This document shows, piece by piece, positions 49,308-59,351 of a stretch of 64,000 nucleotides of DNA (positions within the stretch are counted from its first letter, which is position 1; every line of letters begins with the position of its first letter). The position numbers were made by a program, and so were the translations under genes. Source of the stretch: Fimbriimonas sp. (GTDB lineage Bacteria > Armatimonadota > Fimbriimonadia > Fimbriimonadales > Fimbriimonadaceae). The notes below the pieces were generated by a model that saw only the letters and a program-made list of their open reading frames with translations, was not told the DNA's origin and searched no databases. The stretch spans positions 62,001-126,000 of the forward strand of contig JARLGV010000101.1 of assembly GCA_031292555.1 (NCBI GenBank). The letters are read 5' to 3'.

Positions 49308-50258
49308 ATGAAGCTAAACCTACTGCCAACAACGGTCTCGAAAGGAAAGCAAGCCAAATCTGGCATCGTCCTTTCTCTCTTGATAGCTCTCGCAGGAGCG
49401 GGCGCGGCGATCTTCGTGTCTACGTCCTCGGCGAAGGCGTTGAATGATGCCAAGGCAGCCTATGAGGATTCGAAAGGACCCGCGGAGGCCGCTTACAGCA
49501 AGTCAACTGAAGCCGATGCGATCCTGAACGCCGATTCGTCGGTTGCTTTGATCCGCGACGCGAGTCTCGCTGAGGCGATGATCAAGCACAACGACGTCTA
49601 TCCGGATCTCTACGAGAGTGTCAGGCCCTATGTGCCCTCGTTCTATCGCGTGAATAGCATGTACGCCACGCCTACGGGAGCAGGTTCGTCCACGATCACC
49701 TTGGTTGGCACACTCAAGACCTATCAACAATACGCCGACTTGATGCTGGCGTTCTCCCGGTACCCAGGCGTCGTCTCAGTGGGCCGGGCCGGCTACCAGT
49801 TCAATGACAACATCGTTCCCAATTTGACCCCGGGCGATCAAACCGGTACCCCGCACAAGCCGAGCGAGGCGCCAGTGCCTGACGACAAGCTTGCGCGGTT
49901 GACCTACTTTGAATCTCAGGTTCAGCCACAAGGCTATACGGGCGCCGGAAACTTCGGTAGCGGAACGGACAGCACTCGTGGCGCGATGCCGGACTACTCT
50001 CTTGTGACGGTGACCCTGACGGTGACCAAAGATCTGCAGGTGCCGCTTCCCAGAACAACGCTAACAAGCGCCGGTGGAGGAGCAGCGTCGTCAGCAATGA
50101 CGGCCGGTGGGCCACCCGCAGGAATGGGCGGTCCCGGTGGCATGATGGGCGGGGGCCCTGGAATGCCAGGTGCGGGAGCTGGCGCAGGCAGCGCTTCTTC
50201 GTCTGCCAGCGACAATGCCCCCGTCGGGAAAAAAGGCAAAGCTGACCAGAGCGACTAG
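49308..50258 (+). CDS. pilN: Type IV pilus assembly protein PilN-like
   Basis: 316 residues. The N-terminal MKLNLLPTTVSKGKQAKSG matches the conserved PilN peptide (I/L-N-L-L-P) that docks into PilM. One membrane helix at about 19-41, a short coiled coil, then a ferredoxin-like periplasmic domain (SFYRVNSMYATP, LVGTLKTYQQYADLM). The C-terminal 60 residues are Gly/Met/Ala-rich (GGPGGMMGGGPGMPG), an unusual tail. Position right behind pilM (6-bp gap) supports the call. Confidence 0.87.
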   Translation: MKLNLLPTTVSKGKQAKSGIVLSLLIALAGAGAAIFVSTSSAKALNDAKAAYEDSKGPAEAAYSKSTEADAILNADSSVALIRDASLAEAMIKHNDVYPDLYESVRPYVPSFYRVNSMYATPTGAGSSTITLVGTLKTYQQYADLMLAFSRYPGVVSVGRAGYQFNDNIVPNLTPGDQTGTPHKPSEAPVPDDKLARLTYFESQVQPQGYTGAGNFGSGTDSTRGAMPDYSLVTVTLTVTKDLQVPLPRTTLTSAGGGAASSAMTAGGPPAGMGGPGGMMGGGPGMPGAGAGAGSASSSASDNAPVGKKGKADQSD

Positions 50259-50269
50259 GAACTCTAACT

Positions 50270-51121
50270 ATGAAATTGGGCCGATTTGCAATAATAATGA
50301 TCGGAATCACGTTCTGCATCGGATTCCTCAGCTGGGGAATCTTTTGGCAGATGATTCCGAACAACGCGGAAGTCAAGCTTTTGGATAAGGCTACCGAAGA
50401 CAACAAGGCGCAGGCTGAAATGATGCCGCAGGCGAAAAAGCGTGTCGAGCAAGCCAAGCAGATGGTCGACGCAAAGGCCAAGGCTTGGGCAGCCTATGTA
50501 GCTACTCGAACTCCGGGAACCAGCCTGAAAGATGGTGGGATCGATCTTTCGGTGAACCCATGGCAGTTGGTCGTCGATACGCCCAAATTCAGAGATAGCA
50601 TCCAAAGGGCGGTCAACGAGCAGGTCAAGAAGGGTGGCATCAAGGTCGTCACCGCTCCGCTAGTGCCCTTGGTGGATTCGAGCATCCCGGCCAACCAGAT
50701 TTTGGATAGCTTCTACAACTATCCTTCTATCAAGTTCCCGGTCGTAATTTTCGACTTTGGTACAGTGACTGTCCAGGGCACTTACAAACAGATCATGGAC
50801 AATGTCAGGGCCTACAAGTCGATGCCGCACTATCTGGCAGTTGCCGATGGCCTTCGGATCGATGGAACTTCACCTAACCTGACCGGAACCTATAACCTTT
50901 CGATTGTCGGCTTCATTCGAACCAAGACGATCGCTCCTGCCGTCAATGAGGGTGCAGCAACCTCGGCCGCAGGCGGCTTCGGTGGAGGTGGCGCCGGTGG
51001 CAGAATGGGCATGGGCGGTCCTGGTGGAATGATGGGCGGTGGCGCAGGCATGCCGCCAGGTATGGGCGGTGGCGGCGGTCCTAGCCGTGGCAAACCGGGC
51101 GTTATGGGCGCGTCGTTCTAA
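50270..51121 (+). CDS. pilO: Type IV pilus assembly protein PilO-like
   Basis: 283 residues. N-terminal membrane helix (about 5-25, FAIIMIGITFCIGFLSWGIF), a coiled-coil stretch (DKATEDNKAQAEMMPQAKKR) and a PilO-type periplasmic domain with FGTVTVQGTYKQIMDNVRAY, the usual ferredoxin-like signature. Residues from about 230 to the end are a Gly/Met-rich tail (GGRMGMGGPGGMMGGGAGM) much like the end of PilN. It should pair with PilN to link the platform to the secretin. Confidence 0.85.
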   Translation: MKLGRFAIIMIGITFCIGFLSWGIFWQMIPNNAEVKLLDKATEDNKAQAEMMPQAKKRVEQAKQMVDAKAKAWAAYVATRTPGTSLKDGGIDLSVNPWQLVVDTPKFRDSIQRAVNEQVKKGGIKVVTAPLVPLVDSSIPANQILDSFYNYPSIKFPVVIFDFGTVTVQGTYKQIMDNVRAYKSMPHYLAVADGLRIDGTSPNLTGTYNLSIVGFIRTKTIAPAVNEGAATSAAGGFGGGGAGGRMGMGGPGGMMGGGAGMPPGMGGGGGPSRGKPGVMGASF

Positions 51122-51147
51122 ACGAGAACTCAGAGAGTCAGCATAAA

Positions 51148-51942
51148 ATGAAATTGAATTCCATGACGAACAAAGAACGGAATGCGCGAATCAGCGTCTC
51201 GATTCGAGTTCTTGCCCTGAGCGCGATTGTGGTTGCAGCCTACGGTTGTTCCGGTGGTTCTGGAGCGGGCCCTTCGGCTAACTCGGCTACTACGGCAACA
51301 ACCACTGCAACCACGCCGACTTACACGCCACCTAACGTGGATGCGGGTATTCCCGTCGAGCGATCGACCGACACGAAGGGCTACAAGGCTCTTGTCGATG
51401 CGTCTTCTCGATTTGGCAGTCGGCCAGACCCGTTTGCTCTTACGGGTGATGAGGCATCCTTCGATCACCAGCAGAACGCTGAACGCGTCATGGGGGAGAT
51501 GGGAGGCTTTACAGTTCGGTTCGAACTGCCGGAAGAAAAGGAAGTTCAGGTCATTCCGGAAGAAGCGCAGCCTTATCGTCGCCTTGCCGGCGTCGTCGTA
51601 GGGGACTCGGTTCTCGCGATTATCGACATGGGCAACGGGCAGCCGTTCGAGATTATCCGCCCAGGCATGAAGATCCCGAATTCGGAATGGACGGTCGTCT
51701 CGATTAACGAGGACCGAGCCATTCTTCATCGGGACGGAGATGTTCCTCCCCATACGGTATCGGTTCGGCTCGAAAGCCCTCCCGCAAATCAGACCTCGAC
51801 GGCAGGATTTGGTGGTGGTGCTCCCGGCAACTTCGGCGGTGGACCCGGATTCCCGGGCGCTCCCGGTGGAGGTAGGCCTGGATTCGGCGGAGGTAGAGCA
51901 GGAGTCGGCGGAGGGAAGCCGGGCTTCGGTGGGGCTCAGTAG
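51148..51942 (+). CDS. PilP-like lipoprotein of the pilus operon
   Basis: 264 residues. Signal peptide with lipobox VAAYGC, then a Thr-rich linker (TATTTATTPTYTPP) and a small beta domain (about 128-200) with RRLAGVVVGDSVLAIIDMG and GMKIPNSEWTVVSINEDRAIL. Lipoprotein status, position between pilO and pilQ and the homology-region-like beta domain make it the PilP equivalent. A Gly-rich tail (GGGPGFPGAPGGGRPGFGGG) again closes it. Identification rests mainly on gene order, and the sequence is diverged from proteobacterial PilP. Confidence 0.72.
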   Translation: MKLNSMTNKERNARISVSIRVLALSAIVVAAYGCSGGSGAGPSANSATTATTTATTPTYTPPNVDAGIPVERSTDTKGYKALVDASSRFGSRPDPFALTGDEASFDHQQNAERVMGEMGGFTVRFELPEEKEVQVIPEEAQPYRRLAGVVVGDSVLAIIDMGNGQPFEIIRPGMKIPNSEWTVVSINEDRAILHRDGDVPPHTVSVRLESPPANQTSTAGFGGGAPGNFGGGPGFPGAPGGGRPGFGGGRAGVGGGKPGFGGAQ

Positions 51943-52095: not shown

Positions 52096-53763
52096 ATGAG
52101 GATAGAAATGCGTATCAACTGGTATAAGATGGCAATGTTGGCGGTCCTCGCCGGAGTTGTCGTTGCACCAATGTCAATTGCGATGGCGCAGCAGGGGTCA
52201 GAGGTCAAGCTCGATCTCAACCTGAAAGACGCTGACATGATGTCCGCGACGAATGTGCTATTGCAGAGAACGGGTCTTCAGTGCGTCATCGAGCCCAGTT
52301 CGGTTCCCTATCAGAGGGTTACCCTGAAGCTTGATAGCGTGACCGGTGAAGATGCGCTTCGATACATCTGCCAAGCAGCCGGAGCTTATTTCAAGCGAGA
52401 TGAGAACGGGGTATTTATCATCAGCCACGAGAAACCCGTTACCGAGCCGCCGGCGCCGACTACTCCTTCGAAGGTTCCCAAGATCGTTCGCAAGATTAAG
52501 GTCATGAAGGCCGGAGCTCGCGACATCTACGATGCCATCGTTGGTGGAATGCCGTTCGACGTCAGCCGTGGGCTCAAGGCTCTCGATCAGTTTGCCAAAC
52601 TTGCTCAGCCTTCAGAAGTCCAACGGATGTATGGCGCTCAAGCCGATGCAGGCAAGCTTTCCCAACCGCAATTCGGTCCAGCAGTCGTCGCTTCACCGAC
52701 GCCAGGAAACCTCAACTCCGGCGAGTCCGGAGCCGACATTCAGTTGCCTGGTTCGGGCAATGAAGGCTCTCACCAGCTTGGTGGCGCCGGCGGATTTGGT
52801 GGAGGCATCGGTGGTGGCGGTCAGGGCGGCATCGGTGGCGGTATTGGCGGTGGCCAGGGTGGCATCGGTGGCGGTCAAGGCGGTGGACAGGGCTCTACGC
52901 GTCTCGTGGGTGGCACCGGCCTGGTTGGAGAGAGCATTGACTTCATCTCCTATGACCCAACCGATAACAGCCTCGTCGTACGAGGGAACGAAGACGATAT
53001 CAACGATCTTCAGCGCAACATCAATATCTTCGATGTGGCACCAAGACAGGTCGAGATCAAGGTTGAGTTCATCACTACGACGGACTCGATTTCTAGCGAC
53101 TTCGGAACGGAGTTCCTGTACCAGCGCGGAATCATTTCTGCTGGCACGACTCCTGGTACCTTCGTAAATACGTCGGACCCTGTGTTCGTGAACTATGCAT
53201 CGGGCAATATCACCTCCCGACTTCGAGCTTCTCTGGCAGAAGGTGCGGGCAAGGTCGTCAGCGCTCCGATCATTCGCACACTGAACAACCAGCCGGCTAC
53301 GATCTCGAGCGATATCATCACGTATGTGTTCCTCAACACGACGACTGTATCGAACGGTACGATCCTCACTACCTCCAATCCGTATCCGCTTGAGGCTTCG
53401 ACGACGCTCTCGGTTGCGCCTCGAATCAACGATGACGGAACAATCACGGTCTATCTGTTGCCGACCATTCAAAGTTTCGTTGGAACTTCTCAGGGACCGA
53501 ACGGTGAGCAGATTCCAAACGAAGCCAGCCAGGGTATTCGCGTCGTTGCTCGGGTCAAGAACAACGAGACGATCGTTCTCGGAGGACTTGTGAACAAGAA
53601 TGAGAACGACAGCGTCAACAAGGTTCCGATCTTGGCTGACCTGCCGATTATCGGCCAGTTCTTCCGAACGAACACAAAGTCTAAGACAAACAGCGAACTG
53701 CTGATCTTTGTGACACCAAGTATCGTTGACGAAGACACGTCGGCCGGCCCCGGTGGACCGTAG
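52096..53763 (+). CDS. pilQ: Type IV pilus secretin PilQ
   Basis: 555 residues. Signal peptide (about 1-33, ending MAQQG; ATG 52108 is an alternative start). An STN/N0-like domain (VTLKLDSVTGEDALRYIC) and an N1/NolW-like segment follow, then a Gly-rich insert (about 235-272, GGIGGGQGGIGGGQGGG) and the secretin core: EIKVEFITTTDS, VVSAPIIRTLNNQPATI, VAPRINDDGTITVYL and the C-terminal VPILADLPIIGQFFRT. It forms the outer-membrane gate for the pilus. AMIN domains of proteobacterial PilQ are missing. A perfect intrinsic terminator follows. Confidence 0.92.
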   Translation: MRIEMRINWYKMAMLAVLAGVVVAPMSIAMAQQGSEVKLDLNLKDADMMSATNVLLQRTGLQCVIEPSSVPYQRVTLKLDSVTGEDALRYICQAAGAYFKRDENGVFIISHEKPVTEPPAPTTPSKVPKIVRKIKVMKAGARDIYDAIVGGMPFDVSRGLKALDQFAKLAQPSEVQRMYGAQADAGKLSQPQFGPAVVASPTPGNLNSGESGADIQLPGSGNEGSHQLGGAGGFGGGIGGGGQGGIGGGIGGGQGGIGGGQGGGQGSTRLVGGTGLVGESIDFISYDPTDNSLVVRGNEDDINDLQRNINIFDVAPRQVEIKVEFITTTDSISSDFGTEFLYQRGIISAGTTPGTFVNTSDPVFVNYASGNITSRLRASLAEGAGKVVSAPIIRTLNNQPATISSDIITYVFLNTTTVSNGTILTTSNPYPLEASTTLSVAPRINDDGTITVYLLPTIQSFVGTSQGPNGEQIPNEASQGIRVVARVKNNETIVLGGLVNKNENDSVNKVPILADLPIIGQFFRTNTKSKTNSELLIFVTPSIVDEDTSAGPGGP

Positions 53764-53787
53764 CCTCTAGACCACACAACCAGCTCG

Positions 53788-53821
53788 GGTGGCAGGATAA
53801 ACTATCCTGCCACCTTTCTTT
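53788..53821 (+). terminator. Intrinsic terminator between pilQ and aroK
   Basis: Perfect 12-bp stem (GGTGGCAGGATA/TATCCTGCCACC, 53788-53799 and 53803-53814), 3-nt loop and the T-tract TTTCTTT (53815-53821). The aroK start codon follows on the very next base, so readthrough transcripts would have the aroK start next to the hairpin and no ribosome-binding site. Confidence 0.88.
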
Positions 53822-54367
53822 ATGAGTCGTTGTTGGATTTTGTTGGGGATGATGGGAGCAGGGAAGTCCTCGATTGGACGCTCGCTTGCCGAACTCACAG
53901 GACGAACGTTTGTTGACACGGACCTCGTTCTGCAGCAACGGCTTGGCAGGCCAATCAGCCAGATCTTCCAAATCTATGGGGAAGAAGCCTTTCGAGACCA
54001 CGAATCGAGCGTCATTCGCAACCTTTTGCCCGATCACTCGATTGTTTCCACTGGCGGCGGTGCAGTGTTGCGGCCTGAGAACTGGGATGAGTTTCGGCGA
54101 CTCGGTATCACGATTTACCTGAATGCCACGTTGGAGACCTTGCTTGGTCGACTCGCAACCAGCAAGAAGAAGAGGCCACTCTTGCAGGCCGATGATTGGG
54201 AAGAGCGAGCGCGAACGTTGCTCGGCAGTAGAATCGAGTTGTATTCGCGTGCAGACATAATTGTGCCCGTCGACGATGTGGATCTGAGCAGCGGGGCCCT
54301 TAGGGTGCTGAACGCGATCACAGAATATGAAGGCAATTACGATCGATCATCGGACGGGCAGTTGTGA
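53822..54367 (+). CDS. aroK: Shikimate kinase
   Basis: 181 residues. Walker A GMMGAGKSS (9-17), shikimate-binding DTDLVLQQ (about 37-44), VSTGGGAVLR and a lid with KKKRPLLQ show shikimate kinase (ATP + shikimate to shikimate 3-phosphate). No other start is possible because the next ATGs fall inside the Walker loop. No ribosome-binding site is visible; the preceding bases are the terminator of pilQ. Its 3' end overlaps aroB by 41 bp. Position after pilQ copies the pilMNOPQ-aroKB order of Proteobacteria. Confidence 0.93.
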   Translation: MSRCWILLGMMGAGKSSIGRSLAELTGRTFVDTDLVLQQRLGRPISQIFQIYGEEAFRDHESSVIRNLLPDHSIVSTGGGAVLRPENWDEFRRLGITIYLNATLETLLGRLATSKKKRPLLQADDWEERARTLLGSRIELYSRADIIVPVDDVDLSSGALRVLNAITEYEGNYDRSSDGQL

Positions 54368-55361
54368 GGTTCGCTTCGAGCCGCTGGCCTCGGCGCTCGT
54401 TGCGTTGCCTTCTGATGTACGGGTCATTACCGACGTTAACGTCGCAAAGTGTTTCGGTGAACGTCTTTCGCGATTCGAATTCGTCAAGGCGGTAACGCCA
54501 GGTGAAAGAAGCAAATCGAATGCGGTTCTCGCAGAGGTAGTGGATTGGTTGGCCACAACAAGGGCATCCCGAAAGACGACCGTATGCGCTTTCGGAGGTG
54601 GTGTTGTGGGGGATCTGGCCGGATTTGCCGCCGCAGTATATATGCGCGGTGTACCCCTCGTTCAGATACCTACCACATTATTATCTCAAGTGGACTCGTC
54701 GGTCGGCGGAAAAGTTGGCATCGATTTGCCCGCCGGCAAGAACCTCATGGGTGCGTTCTATCCGGCGATTTCCGTATCTGTTTCGCATGACGCCTTGGAA
54801 ACGCTACCGGATCGTGAATTTCGAAATGGGATGGCTGAAGTGTGGAAGTACGGCTTCATCATGGATGCCGATTTGGTTATGGAGTTGAGCCGACTCGGCC
54901 TACAGGTCGTGGGTCCAGAGCTTGAAGGCATTGTAGAGAGGTGTATCCGGTCAAAGGCCCTGGTCGTTCAAGAGGATGAGTTTGAGACCCTCGGGCGACG
55001 CGCAATTCTCAATTTTGGTCACACGGTCGGCCACGCAATAGAGTTTGTGACTGGGTATGGCCCTGTCCTCCATGGAGAGGCTATCAGCATCGGCATGGTG
55101 GTTGAGGCGAGGATCGGGGAATATCTCGGGCTGGCTCCTTCCGGCGTTCTGGAACGAGTTCGGGAGTGCCTCGTTCGCCAGGGGTTGCCGATAACCCATC
55201 CGTCGCTTCAGCAAGAGGATGGCCTGATTCGAGCGATGTACGGCGACAAGAAAGCTTCCGCAGGGCAGTTGGCATTGAGCCTTCTGACCGAGGTCGGTCA
55301 TTGTAAACTGATTGAGGCAGTCGATGAGTCGATCATCAGACGTGCCATGCGTGACTCATGA
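54327..55361 (+). CDS. aroB: 3-dehydroquinate synthase
   Basis: 344 residues. NAD-binding FGGGVVGDLAGFAA, the QIPTTLLSQVDSSVGGK active-site segment, FRNGMAEVWKYGFI and the zinc ligands in NFGHTVGHAIE and VLHGEAISIGM are all present. It cyclises DAHP to 3-dehydroquinate. The start ATG lies 41 bp inside aroK, which couples translation. Metabolically it continues from aroF, encoded 21 kb upstream. The 3' end overlaps a small membrane-protein gene by 4 bp. Confidence 0.95.
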   Translation: MKAITIDHRTGSCEVRFEPLASALVALPSDVRVITDVNVAKCFGERLSRFEFVKAVTPGERSKSNAVLAEVVDWLATTRASRKTTVCAFGGGVVGDLAGFAAAVYMRGVPLVQIPTTLLSQVDSSVGGKVGIDLPAGKNLMGAFYPAISVSVSHDALETLPDREFRNGMAEVWKYGFIMDADLVMELSRLGLQVVGPELEGIVERCIRSKALVVQEDEFETLGRRAILNFGHTVGHAIEFVTGYGPVLHGEAISIGMVVEARIGEYLGLAPSGVLERVRECLVRQGLPITHPSLQQEDGLIRAMYGDKKASAGQLALSLLTEVGHCKLIEAVDESIIRRAMRDS

Positions 55362-55567
55362 AGAACATTCGTCTCATGCTTTCGGTCTTGGTCTTGGCGT
55401 TCCTGGCGCTAGGATACGCCGCCAGCCAAATGGCGGTATTCCAAGGGACGACGTTTGCGTATGCCCAGAAGGTCGACTGCCCGCCGGTACAGTGGCTCTC
55501 CCTATTCTTTTTGGTCATCTGCATCGTCTTCGCTTTTATAAGGGATCCTGAGGCGAATGAAAAGTGA
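55358..55567 (+). CDS. Small membrane protein (69 aa)
   Basis: Two hydrophobic segments (LMLSVLVLAFLALGYAASQMA and WLSLFFLVICIVFAFI) flank a short loop with one Cys (KVDCPPVQ). Start and stop overlap the neighbouring genes by 4 bp each (ATGA), a translationally coupled position inside the aroB-kinase-rpe block. No family is recognised. It may work with the pseudokinase encoded directly downstream, but this is only inferred from coupling. Confidence 0.7.
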   Translation: MKNIRLMLSVLVLAFLALGYAASQMAVFQGTTFAYAQKVDCPPVQWLSLFFLVICIVFAFIRDPEANEK

Positions 55568-57384
55568 TTGGAAAGCTCCTCAAGGCGCGGTATGAGATTG
55601 TCGGGCTGATTCAGGATGGCCCCGTTTTTGCGACCTATTCTGCACGGGACAAAATACAGGGCCGCGATGTGTCCGTTCGCGTCGTGAAGCAACCGTTTGC
55701 TGAGGAAACTGAATTTGTCGATCGACTCGTGTCGACGATTCAGAAGTACGCGATTATCCAGAGCGCCAACATCGAGCGCCTTCATAGCGTCGAGTCGGAT
55801 CAGGGGATTCCCTTCATCCTGGGAGACCTGACGCGTGGACCGAGTCTGGCCGACCGGATCAAGAAACTCGCCCCATTCTCTGTTCCTGTATCGGTGGGCA
55901 CCGCGATCAGCATCCTTCACGCCCTTGACGCAGTACATCGGACCGGTCTCGTGCATGGTGACCTCAATCCACACCATATGGCGGTCATGGCAGACGGCGA
56001 TGTGCGGCTCCAGATGACTGGAGTGTGGGAAGCCTATTCGGGTAGCCCAACTGCAGGCATCATGGTTTTGCCAGGGATGGCGCCCTATCTCGCACCAGAG
56101 GTGAGTGCGGGGGCGATGCCAAACACTTGCTCCGACGTGTATGCCGTGGGCATTCTGCTGTTTGAACTCATCAGCGGCAGGCTGCCTTATTTTGCCGAGA
56201 CTCCTCTTGCGATGGCACTTCAGCACTCGACCGCGGCAACCCCCAACGTTCGCACATCAAATACGTCGATCCCTTCGGTCCTGGATGAGATTATCAAGAA
56301 GGCGATGTCAAAAGACCCGCGATCTCGGTATGCCTCGGCAGGAGAGATGCTTGCCGACCTTCGGATTCTCCAAGACGCTCTCCGGTTCGGAAGATCGCTT
56401 ACGTGGCCCCTCCGACCTGAGCACGTACAACCGGGCCCAGCCGCGACGGGAAGGGGGCCGGCTTCCAAGCCGCAGCCGGTTGCTCCCCGTATGTCGGCGA
56501 TACGCGGTGAAACCGAACAACTCGAGGTTAGCCGGAAGAAACAGCGTGCCGAGCGAGACGTTCCAGTTTGGATGCTCGTCGTCTTCACCTTCGTGCTGGC
56601 AATCTTTGGGAGCATCTGCCTCATGTGGATCTACATGAGCCTAAGCCGTCCAAGGATGGTGACAGTGCCCAACATCAAGGGGCTCTCCGTAACGGAGGCG
56701 ACCAGTCTGCTCAAAGATAGCAAACTCATTCTCAAGGTGGCGTCCCGCGAACCGAATGACACAGTGGACCAGGATAGCGTTCTAGACGTTCGGCCGGAAC
56801 GCGGAGAAAAAGTGCGCGAGGGCGGCGTCGTGTACGTCGTCTTGAGCTCGGGCAGTCGCATGGTGGCGGTACCGGAAATGGTGAGCCTGACCGTAGACAA
56901 AGCCAAAGCGCTCCTCGCCACTCTCAACTTGACGGTTGAGCCACGGATCGAGCGGATCAGCGATCCGAAAATCGCCCCCGACTTGATCGTGCGTTCGGAT
57001 CCTCCTGCTAGAGAAAAGGTGGCTCGGCAAAGCCAGATAAAGCTATATGTGAGCTCGGGCCCGAGCGAGGAGACTACCTCGTCCCGCCCGGCCGAGAACG
57101 ACGGGTACCTCTATACGCTTCACCTGAAGCTGAAGGACCTGCCTCATCCGACCCGGGTCAGGATCGAGATCATCGACGACAATGGCCGGCGGTCGGTCTA
57201 TGACCAGATGCACGACAGCGGGGACAAGTTCGATGTAACGACCCATGGCGCTCAGCAAACGGCAACGTTTAACATTTACTATGACGGCGTCCTAGTAATG
57301 TCAAAGGACAAGCAGGCGGAGGGCGACGAGGCGAGCAACGATACCCTAGAGCCCGATTCGCCAAACGGAGGTACGCCCCAATGA
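55564..57384 (+). CDS. PASTA-domain transmembrane pseudokinase (PknB-like, catalytically degenerate)
   Basis: 606 residues from GTG 55564. An N-terminal Ser/Thr-kinase-like domain (about 8-275), a membrane helix (about 334-357), two PASTA domains (about 366-430 and 434-499) and a C-terminal beta domain (about 515-585). The kinase core keeps APE (177-179) and the helix F Asp in SDVYAVGILLFEL, but the Gly loop is lost, VAIK reads VSVR (Arg39), HRD reads HGD with LNPHH in place of LKPEN, and DFG reads MTG (151-153). It can hardly transfer phosphate. PASTA kinases sense peptidoglycan/lipid II; here a scaffold or regulator role is likelier. Confidence 0.85.
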   Translation: MIGKLLKARYEIVGLIQDGPVFATYSARDKIQGRDVSVRVVKQPFAEETEFVDRLVSTIQKYAIIQSANIERLHSVESDQGIPFILGDLTRGPSLADRIKKLAPFSVPVSVGTAISILHALDAVHRTGLVHGDLNPHHMAVMADGDVRLQMTGVWEAYSGSPTAGIMVLPGMAPYLAPEVSAGAMPNTCSDVYAVGILLFELISGRLPYFAETPLAMALQHSTAATPNVRTSNTSIPSVLDEIIKKAMSKDPRSRYASAGEMLADLRILQDALRFGRSLTWPLRPEHVQPGPAATGRGPASKPQPVAPRMSAIRGETEQLEVSRKKQRAERDVPVWMLVVFTFVLAIFGSICLMWIYMSLSRPRMVTVPNIKGLSVTEATSLLKDSKLILKVASREPNDTVDQDSVLDVRPERGEKVREGGVVYVVLSSGSRMVAVPEMVSLTVDKAKALLATLNLTVEPRIERISDPKIAPDLIVRSDPPAREKVARQSQIKLYVSSGPSEETTSSRPAENDGYLYTLHLKLKDLPHPTRVRIEIIDDNGRRSVYDQMHDSGDKFDVTTHGAQQTATFNIYYDGVLVMSKDKQAEGDEASNDTLEPDSPNGGTPQ

Positions 57385-58025
57385 CTTGTGACCTCGCGCC
57401 ATCGATCCTCTCATTCGACCTCACCGATATCCGTCAGTCAGTTCGCACATTGGTAGCAAGCGGAGCTTCAATCGTTCACTTGGACGTGATGGACGGGCAG
57501 TTCGTGCCGCCGATCACGTTTGGCGATTCTTATACGAAATCCCTGCGCTCATGCACTGACGCATTGTTCGAAGCGCACCTGATGGTGAACACGCCCGAGC
57601 ACCAATTTGAAGCATTCGCTGCGGCTGGTTGCGGGCGGATCATCTTCCACGCCGAGGCAACCGTCCACAGCCATCGCCTCATTCAAAGGTTGAGGACCAT
57701 GAACGTCGAACCAGGTATCGCGATCAACCCGGGCACCCCGGTCGAGGCTGTTCTTCCGGTGCTGGATATGGTGGATATCGTCCTCGTAATGACTGTGAAT
57801 CCAGGCTGGGGTGGCCAGGTCTTCATCTCGTCTGCATTGGAGAAGGTGCGGCGCATCCGCGACCTTCGTCCGAATGTCCATATCGAGGTTGACGGCGGGA
57901 TCGATCCACACACATTGCCGATGGCAAGGGAGGCGGGGGCGAACGTGTTCGTTGTGGGAAGCCATCTGGCTCGTTCCGCCGAATTGGCACAAGCAACCAA
58001 GGAGATAGTCGCGCTGTGTGGCTGA
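57381..58025 (+). CDS. rpe: Ribulose-phosphate 3-epimerase
   Basis: 214 residues. LAPSILSFDLTDI, the metal/active-site segment HLDVMDGQFVPPITFG, FEAHLMVNTPE, VMTVNPGWGGQVF and EVDGGIDPHTL are hallmarks of RPE, which interconverts ribulose 5-phosphate and xylulose 5-phosphate. The start ATG overlaps the pseudokinase stop by 4 bp. The erythrose 4-phosphate made by this pathway feeds aroF, and ribulose 5-phosphate feeds riboflavin synthesis (ribD follows), so the cluster has metabolic logic. Confidence 0.95.
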   Translation: MTCDLAPSILSFDLTDIRQSVRTLVASGASIVHLDVMDGQFVPPITFGDSYTKSLRSCTDALFEAHLMVNTPEHQFEAFAAAGCGRIIFHAEATVHSHRLIQRLRTMNVEPGIAINPGTPVEAVLPVLDMVDIVLVMTVNPGWGGQVFISSALEKVRRIRDLRPNVHIEVDGGIDPHTLPMAREAGANVFVVGSHLARSAELAQATKEIVALCG

Positions 58026-58333
58026 AGCTGTTTACTACCGTTATGCTAGCGGCAACGTTGGCCCTCCTTATCGAGCGTCCGTCGATTGTAGGACCGCTAC
58101 CTCATCGGCCGGCAACGCGAGCCGCGGCGCTGGCCTTTAGTAAGCGGGCACTGGCTTTTACTGGCGCACTAATCGTCTCCATAACGTCGGCAGGAGTGGG
58201 TTCAATCGTTCTAGTGAGACGGGCGAACGCCGAGTTCAGGAGGCAATCTCTGGAGAACATGAAGTCGCTGATCGACGGTACGATCGAAGACCACAAGAGA
58301 AAGGCAGGCGGGCAAGATGGCCCAGCAGTCTGA
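58016..58333 (+). CDS. Small two-helix membrane protein
   Basis: 105 residues from GTG 58016, overlapping rpe by 10 bp and ribD by 17 bp. Hydrophobic stretches at about 5-19 and 48-67 (ALAFTGALIVSITSAGVGSIVLV), then a charged C-terminus (RRQSLENMKSLIDGTIEDHKR). No family is recognised. The tight overlap on both sides supports a real, coupled gene despite its size. Confidence 0.6.
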   Translation: MWLKLFTTVMLAATLALLIERPSIVGPLPHRPATRAAALAFSKRALAFTGALIVSITSAGVGSIVLVRRANAEFRRQSLENMKSLIDGTIEDHKRKAGGQDGPAV

Positions 58334-59351
58334 TACTGACGAACGCATGATGCGACGGGCAATTTCCCTCGCCAAGCGTGGTTACCCGGCACCCAACCCG
58401 CACGTCGGATGTGTGATTGCACGGGGAGACCATATCGTCGGCGAAGGTTTTCATCGCTTTGCCGGCGGTCCGCATGCGGAAGTGAATGCCCTGACCATGT
58501 CAGGCGAACATGCTATGGGGGCCACCGCATACGTGACCCTCGAGCCGTGCGATCATCATGGACGTACTCCGCCATGCACGGAAGCCCTTATGAGAGGCGG
58601 TATCTCACGTCTGGTAGTCGCCTGTCTGGATCCAAACCCCGTTGCCTCTGGAGGCCTAACCAGGCTGGCTGCCCATGGCATTGTTTGCGAATCGGGTCTT
58701 CTATGCGATGAAGCGCGGGTCGCAAATGTACGGTTCATGACGGCGATGGTGCGTCGACGGCCCTACGTCGTCGTCAAGGTCGCAGCCTCGTTGGACGGCC
58801 GAATCGCCATGCTGTCGGGAGAAAGTCAGTGGATCACCGGTCCGGATGCACGTAGAGCAGGGCACCGGTTGCGGGCAGAGTGCGGAGCGGTGCTGGTGGG
58901 GCGGGGAACGGTCGAATCCGACGATCCCAGACTTACCGCACGGCTGGCGGGCGTCATCAATCAGCCGACTCGCGTTGTGCTCGATCCGTATCGAAAGCTC
59001 GGACCTCACTGGCAGGTATTCGATACAAGCGCTCCGTGTCTCCACCTCTTCGAGGGGGCATTTGGGTTAAAGCTTCACGATGCGGCGTTCGACCTAAATG
59101 ATGTGTGCGCTCTGCTGTTCAATAGGGGTATCACGGGCCTGCTAGTGGAGGGAGGAGGCGAAACCATCACTCGTTTTCTCCGAGCGGACTTAGTCGACCG
59201 CATCGAGATGTTCGTCGCTCCCAAGATCCTCGGCAGCGGTCGTCCATGGGTGGGTGACTTGCAGATCTCGACGCTCGCCGATGCACCTCAGTTCAGGGTG
59301 GAGTCGGTAAAAAAGCTCTCAGGGGATCTGCGAATCACCCTTACTCGGTAA
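58317..59351 (+). CDS. ribD: Bifunctional riboflavin biosynthesis deaminase/reductase RibD
   Basis: 344 residues. N-terminal cytidine-deaminase-like domain with the zinc site H53-A-E55 and PCDHHGRTPPC (Cys78, Cys87); C-terminal reductase domain from about 147 (PYVVVKVAASLDGRIA, WITGPDARRAGHRLRA, LLVEGGGETI). It performs deamination and reduction of the GTP-derived pyrimidine in riboflavin synthesis. The start overlaps the small membrane-protein gene. ribE/ribBA/ribH are not in the window. Confidence 0.94.
   Translation: MAQQSDTDERMMRRAISLAKRGYPAPNPHVGCVIARGDHIVGEGFHRFAGGPHAEVNALTMSGEHAMGATAYVTLEPCDHHGRTPPCTEALMRGGISRLVVACLDPNPVASGGLTRLAAHGIVCESGLLCDEARVANVRFMTAMVRRRPYVVVKVAASLDGRIAMLSGESQWITGPDARRAGHRLRAECGAVLVGRGTVESDDPRLTARLAGVINQPTRVVLDPYRKLGPHWQVFDTSAPCLHLFEGAFGLKLHDAAFDLNDVCALLFNRGITGLLVEGGGETITRFLRADLVDRIEMFVAPKILGSGRPWVGDLQISTLADAPQFRVESVKKLSGDLRITLTR

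Follow-up and report, generated by a model that had tools for sequence, protein, structure and literature searches.

A PASTA-domain receptor pseudokinase between aroB and rpe in Fimbriimonas (Armatimonadota) and its probable non-catalytic role

PASTA kinases are central regulators of wall growth in many bacteria, and in species possessing an active PASTA kinase it is hard to separate out a receptor role that does without phosphorylation. A different wall-associated protein, DamX of E. coli, crosses the membrane once and has an outer domain for peptidoglycan binding. DamX binds peptidoglycan and stimulates PBP1A and PBP1B (PMC7642682). In B. subtilis, the PASTA kinase gene is found in the prpC-prkC-cpgA operon, and rpe has been described as belonging to the same operon (PMC6449344, PMC8631317). 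The families of bacterial pseudokinases listed in a 2025 review comprise ActPs1-3, GLW, CP1, DYD, DLHK, EssB, SidJ and SelO; in the portion of its text covered here no PASTA-bearing family was seen, and the word PASTA occurs once, in the reference list (PMC12599244). In a search of the open-licence literature, neither a PASTA pseudokinase family nor the PASTA kinases of Armatimonadota were found described.

The receptor gene and its neighbourhood

The window, that is, the whole stretch of DNA analysed, comprises 64,000 nucleotides of a contig of Fimbriimonas sp. (JARLGV010000101.1). The genome of the window and that of Fimbriimonas ginsengisoli Gsoil 348, whose chromosome has been published (PMC4072686), belong to the same genus (g1; Armatimonadota, class Fimbriimonadia). 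An earlier note on this DNA had assigned positions 55564-57384 to a pseudokinase of the PknB architecture, and both the limits of the frame and the architecture were borne out. The gene, located on the + strand, begins with a GTG codon at 55564, ends with a stop at 57384 and encodes 606 amino acids. The Pfam search of the product gave a Pkinase match at residues 19-257 (68.7 bits, above the cut-off) and two PASTA matches (73.3 bits), with a membrane helix between the kinase and PASTA parts, which is the domain order of PknB, PrkC and StkP. The NCBIfam equivalog of PASTA kinases, NF033483, matches residues 2-503 with 308.5 bits and does not reach its cut-off of 450. The features of the gene are as follows.

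55564..57384, + strand: PASTA receptor pseudokinase of 606 aa, starting with GTG; the genome's only PASTA protein
55564..56379, + strand: pseudokinase domain with predicted PknB-type fold, residues 1-272 (Pfam, StkP alignment, model)
55678..55680, + strand: Arg39 replacing the VAIK lysine (alignments)
55954..55977, + strand: HGDLNPHH, residues 131-138, replacing HRDLKPxN, Asp133 retained (alignments)
56014..56028, + strand: MTG-Val-Trp, residues 151-155, replacing DFG; Trp155 family-specific and conserved (alignments)
56569..56637, + strand: single transmembrane helix, about residues 336-358, a hydrophobic stretch after RKKQRAERD, read from the sequence
56659..56847, + strand: PASTA domain 1 (Pfam, 47.5 bits)
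56863..57057, + strand: PASTA domain 2 (Pfam, 38.1 bits)
57106..57333, + strand: C-terminal domain, predicted all-beta with six strands (single-sequence model, low-to-moderate confidence)

In the single-sequence prediction of the isolated ectodomain, which was poor overall (mean pLDDT 44.3), the blocks of the C-terminal beta part had pLDDT values of 43-75.

The pseudokinase gene is part of a chain of overlapping frames extending from 53822 to 59351 in the order aroK-aroB-two-helix protein-pseudokinase-rpe-105-aa ORF-ribD, with successive overlaps of 41, 4, 4, 4, 10 and 17 bp. Its other members, together with a hairpin at its start, are given below.

53787-53815: terminator-like hairpin of 13 pairs, upstream of aroK
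53822..54367, + strand: aroK, shikimate kinase (Pfam), first gene of the overlapping operon
54327..55361, + strand: aroB, 3-dehydroquinate synthase (Pfam)
55358..55567, + strand: 69-aa two-helix membrane protein, no Pfam match, 4-bp overlaps with aroB and the pseudokinase
57381..58025, + strand: rpe, ribulose-phosphate 3-epimerase (Pfam), 4-bp overlap with the pseudokinase
58016..58333, + strand: 105-aa membrane ORF, no Pfam match, conserved between rpe and ribD in most family loci
58317..59351, + strand: ribD-like gene with deaminase motifs visible in its sequence, a conserved neighbour and the last of the overlapping chain

Translational coupling to the small membrane protein and to rpe had been suggested previously and agrees with the overlap of 4 bp on each side (ORF 55358-55567; rpe from 57381). 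The chain of overlaps, from aroK through ribD, is longer than was stated then. No match to a PP2C gene beside the pseudokinase was found at the related loci, and its neighbours in the window are aroB with the two-helix (2-TM) gene and rpe.

Much of the phylum shares the order secretin-aroK-aroB-kinase-rpe-ribD: it recurs in families f10, f12, f13, f14, f19 and f26 and is partly present in f16, f27, f31, f33 and f34. In nearly all related loci with this arrangement, the kinase gene follows a small ORF for which helices are predicted. Homology of the two-helix proteins is clear within the taxonomic order of the window's genome; for their putative homology with the small proteins of other classes, the hhalign comparison returned a probability of 28%. 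Two peculiarities of composition were observed near the secretin gene: three consecutive proteins encoded upstream of it (49308-51942) end in low-complexity tails rich in Gly, Met and Pro, and the Gly-rich insert of the secretin itself contains a 33-bp tandem repeat (52693-52893).

In E. coli K-12 (NC_000913.3, 3513631-3522751; L162), the corresponding region reads hofMNOPQ-aroK-aroB-damX-dam-rpe. A block of the type pilus/hof-aroK-aroB-X-rpe is common to Armatimonadota and E. coli, X being the PASTA pseudokinase in the former and DamX in the latter. The earlier note had drawn attention to a block of shikimate, pentose and riboflavin genes; these genes are present, but their association is not odd, as the neighbourhoods of damX in E. 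coli and of prkC and rpe in B. subtilis demonstrate. These neighbourhoods suggest that the arrangement is old. In Armatimonadota as in the distant phylum of E. coli, the slot between aroB and rpe is occupied by a membrane protein that binds the wall, putatively so in the former. By analogy, and with the reservation that position is not function, this slot fits a role requiring wall binding rather than catalysis.

The kinase domain: fold, active site and history

The closest relative of the protein with a solved structure is, by sequence, StkP (124 bits). A structure prediction, as the earlier note had proposed, was made for residues 1-300, the alignment input consisting of 13 unrelated kinases from viral contigs gathered with a canonical profile. 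It yielded a confident model (pLDDT 87.5), whose best PDB matches were PknA, PknB and Stk1 with Z-scores of 31.6-34 (33-34 for PknA and PknB). Judged by this confidence and these matches, the predicted pseudokinase domain has an ordinary PknB-type kinase fold.

The substitutions were read against StkP, the 13 unrelated kinases and, from other Armatimonadota, 16 PASTA kinases of the canonical type. In the alignments, Arg39 replaces the VAIK lysine, Thr58 the alpha-C glutamate and Gly132 the arginine of HRD. The catalytic-loop Lys and Asn are changed to Asn135 and His138, turning HRDLKPxN into HGDLNPHH, and DFG is represented by Met151-Thr152-Gly153. The first Gly of the glycine loop is Gln17, the gatekeeper Met is Gly87 and the P+1 Gly-Ser/Thr is Gly-Met (Met172). 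The retained positions include Asp133, the APE motif (177-179), alpha-F Asp191 and Arg255, the last two of which hold the kinase C-lobe together. Among the VAIK Lys, the alpha-C Glu, HRDxKxxN and DFG, only the Asp of HRD (and its His) is left. The alignment with StkP is ungapped across residues 149-181, so the activation loop is of full length; its Thr sites and the P+1 Gly-Ser/Thr are absent, and the conserved stretch AGxxxLxxMAPYLAPE is found instead.

These alignments agree with the list of altered motifs drawn up previously (Gly loop, Arg39, HRD Arg, catalytic-loop Lys and Asn, MTG), with one refinement: the HRD Arg is indeed changed to Gly132, but a change of HRD to HGD does not by itself disable a kinase, and the base Asp133 is kept. 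The loss of the alpha-C Glu (Thr58) was missing from that list. The metal-binding positions of kinases are the catalytic-loop Asn and the DFG Asp, and in the family alignment no conserved acidic substitute for them was found near DFG and the active site besides Asp133. By established kinase chemistry, the combined loss of Lys, alpha-C Glu, Asn and DFG Asp makes canonical phosphotransfer by the protein very unlikely. The loss of catalysis is well supported by the alignments, and the protein would be expected to lack activity in vitro. The retention of Asp133 together with Arg39 could mean residual nucleotide binding or an unusual chemistry.

Orthologs were found in 59 of the 60 relatives searched, and all those alignable over the kinase domain have altered active sites; in the sole exception (G049) the search gave only an unrelated kinase. 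In the window's family (f1, 37 sequences) neither the alpha-C Glu nor the DFG Asp is kept in any member (0/37 each), and the catalytic-loop Lys is lost in all 37. The VAIK Lys persists in 2/37, with Arg at position 39 in 34/37; the loop Asn is lost in 10/37, and the catalytic base Asp133 is kept in 35/37 and lost in two. By comparison, Lys, alpha-C Glu and DFG Asp are intact throughout the canonical PASTA kinases sampled from other Armatimonadota (16/16). The family has also acquired conserved residues of its own, namely the activation segment AGxxxLxxMAPYLAPE and Trp155 at DFG+2, which is present in 36/37 members of f1 and in 42/43 of f1 and f5 together, this position being Ala in all canonical kinases. 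As is general for bacterial pseudokinases, divergent catalytic motifs are conserved across the clade and the fold is retained. The alignment, the family-wide conservation of the losses and the confident fold model bear out the status of pseudokinase. Profile scans for the window protein gave only one distant Anaerolineales kinase among the genome contigs and no match in the viral contigs.

A phylogenetic tree of 86 sequences, built by a quick method with the active-site columns removed and SH-aLRT support only, splits the canonical PASTA kinases from all HGD (or HAD) kinases without the catalytic-loop Lys. Lys, alpha-C Glu, Asp, Asn and DFG are all still present in the early-branching families f26, f33 and f31 (the last with DFW) and also in f16 and f27, which may all be active, judging by these residues. 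The loss order deduced from the tree begins with the alpha-C Glu, continues in the ancestor shared by f1 and f5 with the replacement of Lys by Arg and the gain of Trp, and ends with the DFG Asp in f1; the DFG Asp was lost separately in f2 and elsewhere. The counts of changes are independent of the root, and the direction of loss depends on rooting with the canonical kinases.

The state of the active site differs among the related families. In the sister family f5, DFG is kept, Arg stands for Lys and Asn is missing. In the sister family f2 (L049-L056, L058-L061, L064), the DFG Asp is replaced by Gly in 13/13 sequences, with Lys and HGDxRPxN mostly kept, and these residues mark f2 as a putative parallel PASTA pseudokinase, degraded in a different way from the window's family. 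The f3 representative (L057) has VALK and DFG intact and FGR for HRD; therefore, its catalytic Asp is lost and the other residues are kept. The single sequence of f4 keeps Lys, Asp, Asn and DFG but has neither the alpha-C Glu nor the Lys of the catalytic loop, and is therefore the least degraded of the order. The tree and these residue patterns show a graded loss of catalysis starting from canonical Armatimonadota PASTA kinases.

Proposed function and alternatives

The chemistry has been lost while the fold, the anchor and the wall-binding domains have been kept, which makes a non-enzymatic scaffold or sensor probable. Our main reading is that the protein is a receptor pseudokinase acting as a non-catalytic wall-tethered scaffold or sensor together with the co-encoded two-helix protein; we give this a probability of about 0.6. 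It builds on computed properties, i.e., orthology, architecture, the missing Lys, alpha-C Glu and DFG Asp, purifying selection, operon linkage and the uniqueness of the PASTA protein. What we infer is that the protein binds the wall, works with the two-helix protein, serves as a scaffold and affects wall synthesis. A muropeptide sensor or scaffold, as the earlier note envisaged, is the most plausible reading, the PASTA domains being present and their ligand binding putative.

A possible mechanism can be outlined. The ancestor, a PASTA kinase of the PknB/PrkC type, would have given up phosphotransfer step by step, with selection continuing to act on its fold. The PASTA domains would anchor the receptor to peptidoglycan or its precursors outside the inner membrane, and the dead but folded kinase domain inside the cell would serve as a protein-binding platform. 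This platform, probably with the co-translated two-helix protein, would recruit or tune proteins of wall synthesis or division.

The earlier note had also proposed looking for a second, active PASTA kinase. The PASTA profile search found no second PASTA protein in the window's genome. Just two PASTA units are present in 44 of 46 family genomes; of the remaining two, one shows an additional unit that scores below the cut-off and the other shows no unit. In 25 of 27 sampled genomes with this locus type the only PASTA units are the two of the locus kinase. Three other Ser/Thr kinases of the window's genome have intact motifs and no PASTA domains, and one of them adjoins a PP2C phosphatase gene (contig C38). 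These kinases suggest an alternative, namely that the pseudokinase is an allosteric partner which dimerises with an active kinase, such as the PP2C-linked one, and relays a wall signal to it. Kinases of the PknB type are activated by dimerisation via the N-lobe, which would suit such a partnership; however, the pseudokinase and the active kinases have no genomic linkage, and we consider this explanation unlikely.

A slightly less probable alternative is an unconventional enzyme that uses ATP in a non-canonical way, with Arg39 and Asp133 as the remaining catalytic residues. WNK, CASK, SelO and SidJ are kinase-fold proteins with non-canonical arrangements for ATP use. Both residues are conserved in most of the family, and in the window's clade the protein is most conserved in its kinase domain, which speaks for this idea, as does the existence of bacterial pseudokinases with new chemistry, SidJ and SelO, mentioned in the review (PMC12599244). 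Against it, all 37 members are without the alpha-C Glu, the DFG Asp and the Lys of the catalytic loop, 10 members have lost Asn, no conserved acidic replacement is seen near DFG, and Asp133 itself is lost in two members.

It might also be supposed that the protein is a pure peptidoglycan-binding anchor, in which only the PASTA ectodomain and the membrane helix matter and the kinase domain is left over and decaying, since active-site residues have decayed repeatedly and differently in each family. However, the pN/pS ratio of the kinase domain between close relatives is 0.02-0.19, and in the window's own clade it is 0.13-0.19, compared with 0.20-0.45 for the PASTA domains, all these ratios being rough because the synonymous sites are near saturation. 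The kinase domain shows newly conserved residues and is deleted in no locus studied. It is under strong purifying selection and is not freely decaying, which makes the pure anchor improbable. That the gene is a recent pseudogene, or an artefact of sequencing or assembly, was rejected because the open frame and like substitutions are conserved in many independent assemblies, including the closed F. ginsengisoli genome (L011/L068).

Nature seems to have made here the separation that is hard to achieve in species with an active PASTA kinase, the only PASTA receptor of the genome being one whose catalytic site is gone. A broader proposition, which we advance tentatively, is that the whole order has swapped its only PASTA kinase for a non-phosphorylating peptidoglycan-bound receptor with a dedicated two-helix partner, signalling or scaffolding by conformation and binding alone, and that intermediates still exist in related families. 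The graded series in Armatimonadota, from canonical kinases through HGDLRPxN forms with Lys and DFG to fully dead ones, makes the order of losses and gains testable, and one member of the family belongs to Fimbriimonas ginsengisoli Gsoil 348, a strain that is in culture and whose genome is closed.

Comparison with known systems

The protein resembles PknB, PrkC, StkP and Stk1 (NF033483) in its domain order, its fold and its rpe neighbourhood, the latter as in Bacillus. It differs from them by the absence of the catalytic Lys, alpha-C Glu, loop Lys and Asn and DFG Asp, by an NF033483 score below the cut-off and by the fact that no PP2C gene was found at the locus. A canonical PASTA kinase of Armatimonadota, in the one genome examined closely (L108, 1047-6282), is encoded behind genes for an FHA protein, FtsW/RodA and a PBP transpeptidase, an arrangement presumably resembling the actinobacterial pknB cluster.

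The likeness to DamX concerns position and topology, both proteins being encoded between aroB and rpe, DamX after the hof genes and aroK. DamX has a SPOR domain instead of PASTA domains and lacks a kinase fold, its gene is separated from rpe by dam, and Pfam gave no SPOR match in the window pseudokinase; the relation is a positional and topological analogy, not homology.

In MviN, aromatic residues fill the ATP pocket, and Trp155 might do the like in the window pseudokinase. As described in the review, the pseudokinase domain of MviN (ActPs3) is likewise membrane-linked, is tied to peptidoglycan synthesis and acts as a recruitment platform, but in ActPs3 members part of the activation loop is deleted, and MviN belongs to an integral membrane protein that peptidoglycan synthesis requires (PMC12599244). 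The window pseudokinase, in contrast, has an activation loop of full length and PASTA domains following a single membrane helix. EssB/YukC, in the same description, shares a cytoplasmic pseudokinase with one membrane helix and a scaffold role, and differs by an attenuated activation loop, the absence of PASTA and the context of type VII secretion (PMC12599244). As far as these descriptions in the review go, the protein of the window appears to represent a PASTA-kinase lineage turned receptor pseudokinase, set apart from ActPs3 and EssB (PMC12599244).
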